A stretch of 59,901 bases of DNA. Source: Micrococcales bacterium. GTDB taxonomy: Bacteria; Actinomycetota; Actinomycetes; Actinomycetales; Microbacteriaceae. The DNA lies in NCBI GenBank assembly GCA_947454255.1, contig CANGIU010000008.1, forward strand, positions 1 to 59,901, read 5' to 3'. Shown piece after piece: positions 434-7,381 of this stretch; position 1 is the first letter of the stretch; each line of letters starts with the position of its first letter. The translations under genes and the position numbers were made by a program. The notes beneath the pieces are model-generated. The model searched no databases. It was not told the origin of the DNA and worked only from the letters and a program-made list of their open reading frames with translations.

Positions 434-1909
434 TTAGATCTGGCCTTTAGAGAGCCCAGTAATGACCTGGCTAGCCCTGACCTTCAACTCATCTAAATCA
501 CTGAGTTTCTTGAGTCCATAGACCTGTTGGCTCATTCGGTGGTTCTTTACGAACTCCTCTTTATGTCTATCTAGGAAGTCCCAGTAGAGAGTTGTAAAGG
601 GACAGGCATTATCGCCAACCCTTAGCTTCGGGTCATAAACACAGCCCTTGCAGTACTGGGTCATTCTGGAGATGTATGCGCCACCGGCTGCATAAGGCTT
701 TGTCATCATGATTCCCCCATCGGCATGAACTCCCATGCCAATGACGTTTGGAACCATTACCCAGTCAGATGCGTCGATGAAAGCCTCCCTCATCCAATCC
801 AAAAACTCTTGAGGGTTAGTGCCAGTGATCAGTGCCAGATTACTCAGAATCATCAGTCGAGGAATATGGTGAACCCAGGATCTGTCTTCAATATCTTTCA
901 CAACACTAGAAACACAGTCCATCTCGGTGGCTATTGAATTCCTAAATACCGGTAGCAAAGGCAACTGTGCGTTCAAACCATTCTTGTATTTATAGCCCTC
1001 CCCTAAGAACCAATACATTCCATTGACATACTCACGCCAACCAATAACCTGTCTGACAATTGCTTCAACTGATTGAATTTTTGCTTTGCCTTGCTTGTAA
1101 CTGTTAATAACAGCTGATACTGCTTCAGCAGGATCTAGTAGCCCATTGTTGAGATAAGGACTCAGTAGTGAATGGTGCAGCGCCCAGTTGTCTTTGACAA
1201 CAGCATCCTCATAAGGACCAAAACCATCTAGGTGATGTTTGATGAAGTACTCAAGTTGAGCTAAAGCACCTTTACGAGTTGTTGCCCAAGTTCTAGTTGG
1301 TTCATAGTCAAGGTCTTTAGCGACCGCAAGATCAATCTCATCTCTATCGTGATAGAGATACTCAGGCCACTCATAATTCTTAGGTGGTGGTAATCGGTTA
1401 TCGGCATCAAAGTTCCAAGCACCACCCTCAGGCTTACCGTCCAAAACAAGAATGTTTAGTCGCACTCTTTGAGCTCGGTAGAAGTTCTCCATGACATAGG
1501 TCTTCTGAGACTTAGCCCAAGCAAAGAAGTCTTCACGTTTGGTTAGAAATAGATCGTTAGTTACGAACTTAACACCGTATTCAGTTAGCTGAGCAAAAGA
1601 TCTAAATGAAGATGGCTCAGCGCAGTAAACAGGAAGATCACCATAAATACTCTTTGCCGTATCAAGACCATGAATGGTTGTTTCCGCTTTGATGTATTCG
1701 ACTTTGATGCCAGACGCTTTTAGTTCTTCAGCGAAGTGTCTTGCTGAAGAGATTAGGAAGAACAATCTTTCCTTGTGCCAATCTCTACCTGAAGTCATTC
1801 GAGCACTCTCGACCAGAACAACAACATCGGTCTTAGGGTCTAGGTCCTTTAGAACACCTTTGTTTCTATTCAAATGATCAAAGGGAATGTAGAGAATTCG
1901 AGAGGTCAT
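434..1909 (-). CDS. FeS-cluster bacterial cryptochrome/photolyase-related protein (DPRP family)
   Basis: About 491 residues. The N terminus ([12 protein letters not shown]) and the C-terminal block YCKGCVYDP...[12 protein letters not shown] match the photolyase-related family typified by PhrB/CryB, which carries FAD and a 4Fe-4S cluster and repairs (6-4) photoproducts or acts as a light sensor. Cluster-ligand cysteines are visible in the CKGC and ACPF segments. The open frame extends upstream to 1963, but the ATG at 1909 is preferred. It overlaps the stop of a DUF2256 gene as ATGA, is preceded by AAAAAGG, and puts the family-conserved start at residue 1-3. The extra 18 residues of the longer frame are a shadow of the DUF2256 gene. 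Whether it is a repair enzyme or a photoreceptor cannot be told from sequence. Confidence 0.9.
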
Positions 1910-2046
1910 GCCTTTTTGCACTTCTCTGAACAGAACTTCACGTTCTCCCAATCTCTTTCCCACTTCTTACGCCACTCAAAGGGTAAGCCGCACTTTTGAC
2001 AGGTCTTAGGTGGGCGACCGTTTTTAGTCTTAGCAACGCGAGGCAT
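1906..2046 (-). CDS. DUF2256 family small zinc-finger-like protein
   Basis: A 46-residue protein, [20 protein letters not shown] at the start and [12 protein letters not shown] at the end, with [10 protein letters not shown] between. The four cysteines (CxxC at 16/19 and CxxxC at 39/43) and the tryptophan-rich basic centre are characteristic of DUF2256, whose biochemical function is not established. It overlaps the photolyase-like gene by 4 nt (ATGA), so the two are probably translationally coupled. DUF2256 genes are known to sit beside photolyase/cryptochrome genes in other bacteria, which supports a shared role. The start is only 32 nt from the divergent ATG at 2079, with no clear Shine-Dalgarno, so the message may be leaderless. 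Confidence 0.88.
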
Positions 2047-2078: not shown

Positions 2079-3071
2079 ATGCGCTATGAAGAATTAGACG
2101 AAGACGCTCAAATAGCTGAAGTCCAGAAACTAGTCCCTGGCATATTGGCTCAATATGGAATTGAAGCAAAGGCCATTGAGAATGTGAACCACAGTTTCAA
2201 TTCCTCATTCAAGATCACAGATACCAAGGGGGAAGAATATGCACTTCGTATCAACCTAGCCTCGGGGAAATCCAATAATGAGGTACTAGCTGAGATGCAG
2301 TGGCTAGAAGCCCTTGCGCTTGATGGCTCAGTCTTAGCCCCAGTCCCACTTAGAACAACTAACAATGAGCTGTTAGTAAGCACTCACTTCAAGCCTCTGG
2401 AGAAAGAGACAACTGCGGTGCTCAGCAAATGGATCCCAGGTGAAGAAGTTGGAGATAAGCCAACTAATGAACAGTTGTTTGGTCTAGGTCAAAACATGGC
2501 TAGGTTGCAGATCTTTGCAAAGACCCTAAGTTTCACAGAACCGGCATACTTGCCAACAATTAACCGCACCTTCATGAACACCAAAGACAACCTAAGCCCA
2601 GCCCAACCAAAACAGATAAACGACAAGTTGTATGGGGATATTCTCAAAGGTCTAGCGCTAAGTGAAGAAGTCTATGCACGCATTTCTGAGGGCCAAGAGC
2701 TTCTTCCAATCCATGCCGATTTGCACAATGGCAATGTAATCCAAACGGCAAACAAGTTAGCAATTATTGATTTTGATGATGCAGGAATGGGTCTTCCAAT
2801 TCAAGATCTAGTAATTAGCAACTATTACATCAGGGAAGACACCGAGAAAGAGAAGCACCTGAAAGCAGGTTACGCATCCCTTCTTGAGTTACCAAAGATT
2901 TCTGATGAAGACTACGAAACCCTTCTTATGGGAAGACTGATTGGTTTGGTGAGTGCAGTGACATACATGACCTCTGCAGAAATAATTGAGTTCATACCAA
3001 CTTTCTTGGAAAGAACTCAGACGCGTTTAGATCACTTCTTTGCAACCGGAAAGTTCTCTTTAGCCAACTAA
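2079..3071 (+). CDS. APH/homoserine-kinase-like phosphotransferase
   Basis: A 330-residue protein with the kinase signature of the aminoglycoside phosphotransferase (APH) superfamily. The catalytic loop is IHADLHNGNVI (about residues 212-222), followed by the metal-binding IIDFDDAG (about 230-237). The N-terminal half is a two-lobe kinase fold with RINLASG as the likely beta-strand lysine/arginine region. Members phosphorylate small molecules such as homoserine, choline, thiamine or fructosamines; the substrate cannot be named here. It is divergent from the DUF2256-photolyase pair and overlaps the convergent amylase stop by 4 nt. No resistance role is implied. Confidence 0.8.
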   Translation: MRYEELDEDAQIAEVQKLVPGILAQYGIEAKAIENVNHSFNSSFKITDTKGEEYALRINLASGKSNNEVLAEMQWLEALALDGSVLAPVPLRTTNNELLVSTHFKPLEKETTAVLSKWIPGEEVGDKPTNEQLFGLGQNMARLQIFAKTLSFTEPAYLPTINRTFMNTKDNLSPAQPKQINDKLYGDILKGLALSEEVYARISEGQELLPIHADLHNGNVIQTANKLAIIDFDDAGMGLPIQDLVISNYYIREDTEKEKHLKAGYASLLELPKISDEDYETLLMGRLIGLVSAVTYMTSAEIIEFIPTFLERTQTRLDHFFATGKFSLAN

Positions 3072-4560: not shown

Positions 4561-5115
4561 ATGACTAACCAGTTACCAACTGAACCAGAAGCCAACCAAC
4601 CGGTGGTGCCATGGTTCAAGAAGAAGAAGTTTGTAATTCCACTAGGAATTCTTGTATTTATTATTGCCTTTAACGCCACCAAAGGCCCAAGTGGTCAGAC
4701 CGCAAGTAATAAGACTTCCCCTTCTGAGACCAGCATGACAACAGAAGACCCAACTTACGAACCAGACCCAGTTGTTACTGAAGATCCTGTCTACACAGAA
4801 GACCCAGAACCTGTTGGCCCGGTTGAAACCCTAAGTCAGAGCAACGCAGTCTCGACTGCGCAGGATTACCTAGATTCAAGTTCATTCTCACGCTCAGGAC
4901 TTATTGACCAGCTCAAATTCGAAGGCTTTAGCCTTGCAGATGCCACCTATGCTGTTGACAATATTTATGTGGACTGGAACGAGCAGGCTGCTCAAACTGC
5001 GCAGGATTACTTGGATTCAAGTTCATTCTCGCGCTCAGGACTATACGACCAACTGATCTTCGAAGGATTCACACCTTCGCAGGCAAACTACGGTTTGGCT
5101 GCGGTCGGCTACTAG
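4561..5115 (+). CDS. Membrane-anchored protein with two Ltp-type repeats
   Basis: 184 residues: a short cytoplasmic head, one transmembrane segment (about residues 23-39), an acidic Pro/Thr/Glu linker with repeated EDP units, and two near-identical C-terminal repeats (about 94-135 and 141-182) sharing AQDYLDSSSFSRSGL and FEGF. The repeats resemble the Ltp domain (host cell surface-exposed lipoprotein, PF07553) known from actinobacterial surface proteins and from a phage superinfection-exclusion lipoprotein. There is no lipobox, so anchoring is by the helix. A strong AAGGAG ribosome-binding site precedes the ATG, and an intrinsic terminator follows. The role is unknown; an envelope or phage-exclusion role is only a suggestion. 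Confidence 0.75.
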   Translation: MTNQLPTEPEANQPVVPWFKKKKFVIPLGILVFIIAFNATKGPSGQTASNKTSPSETSMTTEDPTYEPDPVVTEDPVYTEDPEPVGPVETLSQSNAVSTAQDYLDSSSFSRSGLIDQLKFEGFSLADATYAVDNIYVDWNEQAAQTAQDYLDSSSFSRSGLYDQLIFEGFTPSQANYGLAAVGY

Positions 5116-5173: not shown

Positions 5174-7381
5174 TTAGCGATCGCGAGCAGGTCGACCTGA
5201 TGACTTACCAGCAAACTTACCTGCTGGTCTTCCACCTGAGCGTGCACCGTCTCTTGAGCCACCACGTGAACCACCGCGGTCTGAACGACCACCGAAGTCA
5301 CGAGAGCCACCGCGAGATGAACCACGATCTGAACGACCTCTGCCACCATCACGAGAACCACCGCGGCTGTCGCCGAAGTCTAGGGTGCTAGCAGCAGGTG
5401 CTGGAGCAACCGGTCCTGCAATTTCAGCAAGGATTGGGCTATCTGGACGAACATCACCATAGATTGCGTCACGTTCTGCTCTGCGCAGTAGATCTTCTAC
5501 CTTGCGTCTACGAGAACGAGGAACAAGAGTAATAACAGTTCCAGTCTTACCCGCACGGCCAGTTCTACCCGAACGGTGCAAATAGGTCTTGTATTCCTCT
5601 GGTGGATCAACCTGGATAACCATTGCAATGTCGTCAACGTGAATACCACGAGCAGCAACGTCAGTCGCCACTAGTACACGGACTTCACCTGACATAAAGC
5701 GCTGAAGGTTACGGTTTCTCTGGTTCTGGTTTAGATCTCCGTGCAAACGAGCAGCTGGAACACCAGCACTGGTTAGAGACTCACTCAATCTTTCAGCAGT
5801 CATCTTGGTACGGGTAAAGATGATTGCCTTGCCGTGACCTTGAACTAGACGAAGCAAGATAGAGCTTCTGTCTTCAGTTTCAGCAAACATAACTCGGTGA
5901 ATGATGTCGCTGGTCTCTTCAGTTTCGTTAGGAACTTCATAGACATAAGGGTTAGGCAGGAACTGCTTAACTAGTGCATCGATTTCTCTGTCCAAAGTAG
6001 CTGAGAACAGCATCTTCTGTGAGTCGCCTGTTGCAGCAGTAATTCTCTTCACTGGCTCAATGAAACCTAGATCACACATGTGGTCTGCTTCATCGATAAC
6101 TAGAGTCTCAACATCACGAAGATCAACAATCTTCTGAGCCATTAGATCTTCTAGACGTCCTGGGGTTGCCACAAGAATGTCAACACCACGAGCCATAGCA
6201 ATCTCTTGTCTACGCTGAGGCATACCACCGTAAATACAGGTGGTGTAGAAACCAACTGAACGAGCTAGCTGAGAAAGAGTTCTATCAATCTGGTCAGCTA
6301 GTTCACGAGTAGGGGCAAGAATCAAAGCACGTGGACGGTTAGGTTTACGTGGCTGTGAGCCTTGAGCAACAAGCTTGGTGATAAGAGGAACAGCAAACGC
6401 AATTGTCTTACCTGAACCAGTCTTACCTCTACCTAAAATATCTCTACCTGAGATAGCAGCAGGAATAGTTGCCTGCTGGATTGGGAAAGGAGAAACAGCA
6501 CCCATCTGAACAAGTGTCTCTAGAAGGCGTGGGTGTAATCCCATCTCTTCCCACTCAGCTGAGATAACTGCTTCTGTAGCATCAACTGACTGAAGCTTCT
6601 CAAGAACAACATCTTCAAAGAAAGCCTTCTTGTTAGGTGACTTATCTCTTGCACCATCAAAACTTCTCTGACGGTTGTCATCTCTAGCAACACGATCTGA
6701 TCTACGTGGATCTCTTGAACCACGGTCATCTGACCACTCTCTGCGAGGAGCTCTGTCATCGCGTGCTGGACGCTCTGATGTCCATTCACGACGTGGGGCA
6801 CGATCATCACGTGCTGGACGTTCTGCAGTCCACTCTCTACGAGGTGCTCTGTCGTCACGAGCTGGTCTTTCAGAAGTCCATTCGCGTCTTGGTGCACGGT
6901 CATCACGTTGAGGTCTCTCAGAAGTCCACTCTCTACGAGGAGCACGATCGTCACGAGCTGGACGCTCTGATGTCCATTCACGACGAGGAGCACGATCATC
7001 TCTAGGCGCTCTGTCATCGCGACGAGGAGCACGAGATGCACCAGCAGCGTTACCACCGGTACGAGCCTGGCGACCGGCAAAAGATTCTCTTGAATCAGTT
7101 GGAGCCCAGTCGGGACGACGGTCAGTACTTCTAGCTGGACGGTCGTTACGTTGTTCACGACCAGGACGTGAGTCTCTAGCCGGTCTGTCATTTCTTACTT
7201 CACGAGCTGGACGTTCGCTACGAGGAGCATCTTCACGGTAGTCGCGCTTATCGCGACCAGGAGCTGAAGATCCTGCAGTGTGTCTAGGCTTACGAGAAGC
7301 CGGGGCAGCGCTAGCTGCACCTTTACGATGTGTTTTCTTTGCTGCGCCAGGCGCAGACGAGTTTGTGCCAAATTTTGGCAT
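5174..7381 (-). CDS. DEAD-box ATP-dependent RNA helicase with repeat-rich tails
   Basis: 735 residues. The helicase core spans about 285-650 with motifs in order: Q motif FPIQQATIP, GKTGSGKT (I), APTRELA (Ia), TPGRL (Ib), DEAD (II, 430-433), SAT (III), ARGIH (V) and HRSGRTGRAG (VI). The first 240 residues are Arg/Asp-rich and hold five full copies of a 16-residue unit DDRAPRREWTSERPAR (128-207). The C terminus is an RGG-like Arg/Gly/Ser tail. Such proteins unwind RNA in ribosome assembly or cold adaptation, and the tails probably bind RNA. The ATG at 7381 follows AAAGGA. A 250-nt leader precedes it. Confidence 0.95.
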   Translation of the reverse strand: MPKFGTNSSAPGAAKKTHRKGAASAAPASRKPRHTAGSSAPGRDKRDYREDAPRSERPAREVRNDRPARDSRPGREQRNDRPARSTDRRPDWAPTDSRESFAGRQARTGGNAAGASRAPRRDDRAPRDDRAPRREWTSERPARDDRAPRREWTSERPQRDDRAPRREWTSERPARDDRAPRREWTAERPARDDRAPRREWTSERPARDDRAPRREWSDDRGSRDPRRSDRVARDDNRQRSFDGARDKSPNKKAFFEDVVLEKLQSVDATEAVISAEWEEMGLHPRLLETLVQMGAVSPFPIQQATIPAAISGRDILGRGKTGSGKTIAFAVPLITKLVAQGSQPRKPNRPRALILAPTRELADQIDRTLSQLARSVGFYTTCIYGGMPQRRQEIAMARGVDILVATPGRLEDLMAQKIVDLRDVETLVIDEADHMCDLGFIEPVKRITAATGDSQKMLFSATLDREIDALVKQFLPNPYVYEVPNETEETSDIIHRVMFAETEDRSSILLRLVQGHGKAIIFTRTKMTAERLSESLTSAGVPAARLHGDLNQNQRNRNLQRFMSGEVRVLVATDVAARGIHVDDIAMVIQVDPPEEYKTYLHRSGRTGRAGKTGTVITLVPRSRRRKVEDLLRRAERDAIYGDVRPDSPILAEIAGPVAPAPAASTLDFGDSRGGSRDGGRGRSDRGSSRGGSRDFGGRSDRGGSRGGSRDGARSGGRPAGKFAGKSSGRPARDR
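6731..7018 (-). repeat. 48-bp coding repeat inside the helicase gene
   Basis: Five full and two partial units encode the 16-residue DDRAPRREWTSERPAR motif. The DNA copies differ at many synonymous positions (for example varied Arg, Asp and Ser codons) while the protein unit stays almost constant. This suggests the repeat is held by selection and is not a fresh slippage product. Confidence 0.9.

Follow-up and report, generated by a model that had tools for sequence, protein, structure and literature searches.

Organization of the DUF2256–photolyase locus

The window, by which we mean the whole analyzed stretch of 59,901 nucleotides from a Micrococcales bacterium of the family Microbacteriaceae (contig CANGIU010000008.1), contains near its first end a very short gene encoding a DUF2256 protein and, immediately downstream on the same strand, a gene for a photolyase. 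The features of this region are listed in Table 1. The terminator-like stem-loop that lies between the photolyase gene and the gene for ribosomal protein L10 (10 pairs, 5 of them G-C) is weak, since the 3 matches of the pattern scan compare with about 2.7 in shuffled sequences.

Table 1. Features of the DUF2256–photolyase region and further genes of the window
Feature	Position	Strand	Basis and remarks
Ribosomal protein L10 gene	3–191, cut by the window end		PF00466, 65.5 bits
Terminator-like stem-loop with T run	241–267	−	Pattern scan; weak
PhrB-type (6-4) photolyase gene (FeS-BCP type; predicted activity), 491 aa	434–1909	−	PF04244, match to 4dja, four cysteines
ATGA overlap: photolyase ATG (1909–1907) and DUF2256 TGA (1908–1906)	1906–1909	−	Sequence
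DUF2256 gene, 46 aa	1906–2046	−	PF10013; frame runs from ATG to TGA
Phosphotransferase-family gene, divergent	2079–3071	+	PF01636, 73.2 bits; 32 bp from the DUF2256 start
Predicted protein with two repeats matching PF07553 (host cell surface-exposed lipoprotein)	4561–5115	+	108 bits, two stretches
DEAD-box helicase gene; N-terminal part carries a run of RDDRAPRREWTSERPA-like repeats	5174–7381	−	PF00270, PF00271

The coordinates originally predicted for a 46-residue, four-cysteine DUF2256 gene proved to be exact. Its product scores 65.4 bits against PF10013 (Pfam cut-off 25) and carries the CX2C...CX3C cysteine pattern, and on these two grounds it is a member of the DUF2256 family, whose COG number we take to be COG4338. 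The four cysteines (viz. C16, C19, C39, and C43), together with W25, R26, and W29, are invariant in an alignment of 67 members, and the protein is strongly basic, with a calculated pI of 9.9 and a charge of about +8.5. Comparison of the gene with ten relatives over 36 codons gave pN values of 0.06–0.20 and pS values of at least 0.72 that were mostly saturated; the low pN at a pS near or at saturation therefore identifies it as a real coding gene under strong purifying selection. Among bacterial proteins of 50 residues or fewer, DUF2256 is listed as one of three high-frequency DUFs (PMC11796252). In its full profile match, four cysteines and W-R-x-x-W core the window protein does not differ from the family; it is an ordinary short member, and the novelty lies in the link to photolyase rather than in the family itself.

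The photolyase gene, its start and the overlap

The product of the downstream gene scores 152.5 bits against PF04244, which is over the cut-off, and 338.8 bits against Agrobacterium fabrum PhrB (4dja), its residues 3–471 aligning with residues 2–489 of PhrB. Four cysteines (residues 332, 420, 423, and 436) align with the [4Fe-4S] ligands of PhrB, and the residues at PhrB positions H366, L370, Y424, and Y430, whose role is described in the accessible part of PMC4619345, are also retained (counted by eye in the alignment). On sequence grounds the gene encodes a PhrB-type (6-4) photolyase, the activity being predicted. The enzyme shares its PF04244 domain, the four cysteines and these four residues with the prokaryotic (6-4) photolyases of the FeS-BCP type (viz. 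PhrB, 4dja, and CryB, 3zxs); the published enzymes, as far as the available texts describe them, were studied without a small partner, whereas the window gene has DUF2256 beside it.

In the original prediction the start of the photolyase gene had been moved from 1963 to 1909, and this is most likely right because residue 3 of the product then aligns with residue 2 of PhrB; initiation at the GTG at 1963, which would add 18 residues taken from another frame within the DUF2256 gene, is unsupported. The ATGA overlap between the two genes is likewise present as claimed. Such 4-nt NTGA overlaps occur in 17 of 23 directly linked DUF2256–photolyase pairs (24 were examined and L033, with a mis-set frame, was excluded; 14 overlaps were found by script and 3 by eye), 5 of the 17 being less certain since they would need a GTG or TTG start, and 4 further pairs have a stop-start junction of the TAATG or TGATG kind. 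The NTGA overlap is found among Actinomycetota and also in L139 and L127, both of them Alphaproteobacteria, and two further pairs from Microbacteriaceae (L255 and L256) are also ATGA-coupled, as worked out from their frames. Within the window's own genus the overlap is not conserved, the two genes being some 12 nt apart in one relative (L052) and no start being called in another (L048). Of the 46 genomes of Microbacteriaceae that have both families, 12 have their PF10013 and PF04244 matches no more than 60 nt apart. Overlaps of 4 nt are a common type between neighboring bacterial genes, and the overlap by itself therefore proves little; translation of the photolyase is probably coupled to that of DUF2256 at the ATGA.

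Predicted structure of DUF2256 and of its fusion to DUF3253

A model of the window DUF2256 protein (pLDDT 84, pTM 0.54) had no Foldseek match at E 0.001, and the structure libraries listed no clear solved relative beyond three matches that reach a Z of at least 2, all of them weak, viz. the FCS finger of L3MBTL2 (2w0t; Z 2.7, 3.1 Å over 34 residues), a PHD domain, and gyrase-bound YacG (4tma; Z 2.1, 2.7 Å over 32 residues). YacG, which we take to be DUF329, is also the only NCBIfam match of the protein, at 14.7 bits against a cut-off of 79. DUF2256 and DUF329 are both placed in the TRASH clan in the available text of PMC4047054. With the zf-FCS and other TRASH-clan fingers (2w0t and YacG) DUF2256 shares the paired cysteines with a serine after the third, and its last pair, CX3C, has the same spacing as the motif FCSX2C given for zf-FCS in the accessible part of that paper; it differs from them in its invariant W-R-x-x-W, and no gyrase, RNA or Polycomb context was seen. 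The clan assignment and the weak fold evidence from the model suggest a putative zinc-finger fold, perhaps treble-clef-like.

In 26 of 59 actinobacterial loci DUF2256 is fused to DUF3253, as judged by length and a C-terminal motif, and Pfam found both domains in all three of the fusions tested (L045, L009, and L018). In a model of one fusion (L045; pLDDT 91) the DUF3253 half matches 2ns0 (Z 16.1, 1.8 Å over 83 residues) and then many winged-helix proteins; the secondary structure of the model and these matches suggest that DUF3253 has a winged-helix fold. Matches to Z-alpha domains reach a Z of 9.6, but many winged helices score alike. The domain known from RHA04536 (2ns0) is thus fused behind DUF2256 in many Actinomycetota, the window protein being of the short form, and in Pseudomonadota it is encoded by a separate gene that also goes with photolyases: 18 of 200 genomes have DUF3253, all 18 of them with PF00875, 12 with DUF2256 and 9 with PF04244.

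Co-occurrence of DUF2256 with photolyases

Profile searches were carried out over the whole genomes of 200 Pseudomonadota, 150 Microbacteriaceae, and 246 Actinomycetota. DUF2256 and PF04244 are present together in 31 of the Pseudomonadota (DUF2256 in 36, PF04244 in 38; 6.8 expected, p 1.7e-24, a value that treats related genomes as independent), in 46 of the Microbacteriaceae (53 and 54; 19.1 expected), and in 15 of the Actinomycetota (26 over the cut-off, with three sub-cut-off matches left out, and 32; 3.4 expected), these counts being without tree correction and each centre genome (G000 and G405), chosen for having DUF2256, adding one to each count. The association between DUF2256 and photolyases that had been said to recur across bacteria is thus borne out, far beyond chance in all three samples. 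The second family of photolyases, PF00875, is present in all 36 of the DUF2256-bearing Pseudomonadota (89 of the 200 genomes have it), in 52 of the 53 Microbacteriaceae (base rate 106 of 150), and in 25 of the 26 Actinomycetota, where only these 26 were searched and there is hence no base rate for the sample. Within the 89 Pseudomonadota bearing PF00875, DUF2256 and PF04244 are still shared by 31 genomes against 15.4 expected (p 2.9e-12, again with related genomes treated as independent).

The window's genome falls in two of the three samples, so that there are 114 distinct DUF2256-positive genomes, and 113 of these have PF00875 or PF04244, one (G325) having only PF04244. The exception, an actinobacterial genome with neither (G173), has an in-frame TGA in its DUF2256 match. 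In the sampled bacteria, DUF2256 is found almost only where photolyases occur. Nine genomes of one family (f18) have DUF2256 without PF04244, eight of the nine having PF00875, and given these genomes the partner of DUF2256 may be photolyases in general. In the same family, none of whose sampled DUF2256 genomes has PF04244, two DUF2256 matches each have an in-frame stop (G173:C224:5073-5189 and G130:C18:47888-47998). The link reaches, beyond what the original prediction had included, to the PF00875 photolyases and to DUF3253.

Conversely, among the genomes with PF04244, those that have no DUF2256 over the cut-off number 7 of 38 in Pseudomonadota, 8 of 54 in Microbacteriaceae, and 17 of 32 in Actinomycetota. 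On a quick tree of PF04244 proteins those from genomes without DUF2256 are scattered, with 21 changes of label, at least 17 of them forced by starred branches, against a mean of 27 for shuffled labels. Because DUF2256 is absent from many PF04244 genomes and the label changes at least 17 times on the tree, DUF2256 is not required.

Gene neighborhoods and linkage

Of 80 loci, which are the best 80 of 593 from a mostly actinobacterial query and a biased draw, 29 have a gene of the photolyase superfamily (100 bits or more by our own profiles) within 3 kb of DUF2256; it is PF04244-type in 25 and PF00875-type in 13. The listing of neighbor clusters contains spurious high-GC frames, and only recognizable clusters were used. 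DUF2256 adjoins photolyase genes in members of the Actinomycetota, Pseudomonadota, and Bacteroidota; in several Pseudomonadota (L099, L112, L120, and L130) it is embedded among two or three consecutive photolyase genes, PF00875 being confirmed by Pfam for those tested. In 18 alphaproteobacterial loci, nearly all from Sphingomonadales according to their titles, DUF2256 lies near ndk (identified by Pfam in one member, L133) with no photolyase in the examined flank.

Close pairing of the two genes is not general, and neither would be the stoichiometric production suggested in the original prediction. Of the 31 Pseudomonadota that carry both genes, 13 have the two matches within 3 kb of each other; in the remaining 18 the distance exceeds 3 kb or the matches are on separate contigs. 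On this count we reject linkage or hitchhiking as the only reason for the association. PF04244 is found elsewhere in the genome for 34 of 36 genomes in which the flank of the DUF2256 locus shows none (the misses are L091 and L104), the comparison taking in 36 of 51 loci, with 15 left out, many of them on short contigs, and the search spanning 37 genomes, of which one with a linked pair (L126) is not among the 36. Among the Microbacteriaceae genera with at least two genomes visible and at least one positive among the matches listed, the two genes change in parallel in five and in opposite directions in one (g252, in which the DUF2256-bearing member is a 170-contig assembly), while DUF2256 alone changes in four, PF04244 alone in three, and neither in 18. 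In three of the five genera with parallel changes, the genes are distant from each other or on separate contigs.

Eight regions were taken from 132 plasmid records with a DUF2256 match, the plasmid gene table being incomplete. A "cryptochrome/photolyase family protein" adjoins DUF2256 in three of the seven annotated regions (Rhizobium, Acinetobacter, and Sphingomonas), and no photolyase gene is present in the other four (Pantoea, Thioclava, Salipiger, and Agrobacterium); the eighth region is without annotation. The gene directly after DUF2256 in Thioclava (L180:3992-4788) encodes an SOS-response-associated peptidase, and an error-prone DNA polymerase gene lies near DUF2256 in Agrobacterium vaccinii (L183:1-4138). 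DUF2256 and a photolyase are also found beside DUF2805 (PF10985) in Leucothrix (L111:6298-6576) and beside a protein annotated as TIGR03643 on an Acinetobacter plasmid (L177:4144-4407); we take DUF2805 and TIGR03643 to be one family. Many prophage-like contigs (L140–L173, e.g., L154:6001-6135) carry a DUF2256 of about 40–46 aa near genes for Erf, SSB and repressor proteins, one of each confirmed by PHROGs, with DUF2256 read from the other strand; in two of 36 viral loci (L146 and L151) a PF04244 gene adjoins DUF2256 instead. Searches of phage records by tblastn with protein P0001 and with a prophage copy gave no match, a prophage stretch had no match in E. coli genomes (near mode search only), and PHROGs gave weak HNH-endonuclease matches for P0001 (E 0.0008).

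Iron–sulfur cysteines of the associated photolyases

The original prediction included help with the iron–sulfur cluster as a possible role of the small protein. Such a helper, inserting or protecting the [4Fe-4S] cluster of the photolyase, would suit a small cysteine-rich protein coupled to the gene of an Fe-S enzyme, and it would make sense in view of the finding, in the available text of PMC4619345, that PhrB, when mutated in its cysteines or produced in iron-free medium, is either not obtained or insoluble. We have examined 94 PF04244 proteins, viz. that of the window, 13 from the neighborhood loci, and 80 fetched proteins, the last covering all PF04244-only genomes of the three samples (7 Pseudomonadota, 17 Actinomycetota, and 8 Microbacteriaceae) and, where both genes are present, 13 of 31 genomes of Pseudomonadota, all 14 further ones of Actinomycetota, and 21 of 45 further ones of Microbacteriaceae. 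Among proteins from genomes lacking DUF2256, 32 of 32 keep the full set of four cysteines; where DUF2256 is present the figure is 55 of 62, and the other seven (L221, L239, L240, L255, L256, L131, and L114) have no cysteine at any of the four positions. These seven form one group (SH-aLRT 99 in the quick tree) spanning Actinomycetota and Bacteroidota, and they exist although the PhrB cysteine mutants were reported as insoluble or not expressed (PMC4619345, available text).

In two of the seven (L255 and L256) DUF2256 lies directly in front of the cysteine-free gene, and a cluster-loading helper would not be expected there. PhrB and SePhrB, moreover, were made and were active in E. coli, PhrB enzymes repairing in vitro and SePhrB also within E. 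coli cells, according to the accessible parts of PMC4619345 and PMC9178010; in our control E. coli genome PF10013 had no match, though PF00875 matched there and PF10013 matched in two other controls. Among the controls, Caulobacter vibrioides and Synechococcus elongatus have matches to both DUF2256 and the photolyase family. DUF2256 is also present in genomes with PF00875 but no PF04244. The suggestion of help with the cluster is thus not borne out, and an Fe-S helper as the general role of DUF2256 is rejected by the cysteine-free partners and the activity of PhrB and SePhrB in E. coli; we regard this reading as very improbable indeed.

Discussion

We hold it to be very probable that DUF2256 is functionally linked to photolyase repair. 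The best overall explanation, toward which we lean while giving it not quite an even chance, is that DUF2256 is a photolyase accessory, chiefly of the PhrB/FeS-BCP (6-4) type, with a zinc finger that works at the DNA. Of the roles named in the original prediction, DNA handling is the one that we favor. The DNA-side mechanism itself is proposed tentatively, from the charge, the zinc-finger pattern, the winged-helix fusion, and the repair-gene neighbors, among which the SOS-response-associated peptidase of Thioclava and the error-prone polymerase of A. vaccinii are also counted. According to this proposal DUF2256, encoded first, would be made before the ribosome probably starts the photolyase at the ATGA. 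The very basic four-cysteine protein would bind zinc and act as a finger at the DNA, and through presumed contact with the photolyase or with DNA it may help the enzyme, in the crowded interior of the cell, to get to photoproducts or to keep hold of them. It would not serve to build the enzyme or its cofactors, and it does not appear to be needed for core photolyase activity, as PhrB repairs in vitro and SePhrB in E. coli cells (PMC4619345 and PMC9178010, available texts). Against this reading stand the PF04244 genomes without DUF2256, the nine f18 genomes without PF04244, the 18 loci with DUF2256 near ndk, and the four annotated plasmid regions that show no photolyase gene. A winged helix joined to DUF2256 is also what one would expect of a transcription factor, and both winged helices and zinc fingers can serve in contacts between proteins.

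The main rivals to a DNA-side accessory are a regulator and a YacG-like inhibitor. DUF2256, alone or with DUF3253, could regulate photolyase genes, as a transcription or light-response factor, and take no part in repair itself. The predicted winged-helix fold of DUF3253 would be in keeping with this; regulators are often linked to or co-inherited with their targets, enzyme activity in E. coli would not depend on one, and DUF2256 precedes the photolyase gene here. However, the 46-aa form would be a zinc finger with short tails only, and the 4-nt overlap with the enzyme gene suits a partner better; we consider a regulator unlikely. It is improbable, in our judgment, that DUF2256 acts as YacG does, binding gyrase or another housekeeping enzyme, halting it after UV, and being found with photolyases for that reason. 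The shared TRASH clan (PMC4047054, accessible part), the sole NCBIfam match and the place of 4tma among the three structural rows all speak for such an inhibitor, but every score is weak, and it does not by itself explain the association of DUF2256 with PF04244 within photolyase-bearing genomes.

The same association within PF00875-bearing genomes bears on the view that a shared light-exposed lifestyle and common ancestry alone explain the co-occurrence, with no functional link. The genomes are indeed not independent, PF00875, DUF3253, and PF04244 all go together, and many PF04244 genomes are without DUF2256. Against this, the association persists inside the PF00875-bearing genomes, unlinked genes change together in three genera, and DUF2256 lies beside photolyase genes in three phyla, and we judge this view to be quite unlikely.

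A literature search, with most subscription papers outside its reach, found no paper linking DUF2256 to photolyase and none on photolyase together with DUF3253. The tie to photolyase gives DUF2256 a testable function. In its widest form, which we regard as possible rather than probable, our proposal is that DUF2256, with or without DUF3253, is a dedicated photolyase accessory in at least three phyla that would give access to lesions in chromosomal DNA, for instance through binding to distorted DNA or removal of a stalled protein, serving both the PhrB type, with or without the Fe-S cluster, and the PF00875 enzymes, so that bacterial photolyases would not be stand-alone enzymes. If this is true, a textbook single-protein repair enzyme would have a conserved helper that is invisible to in vitro work.
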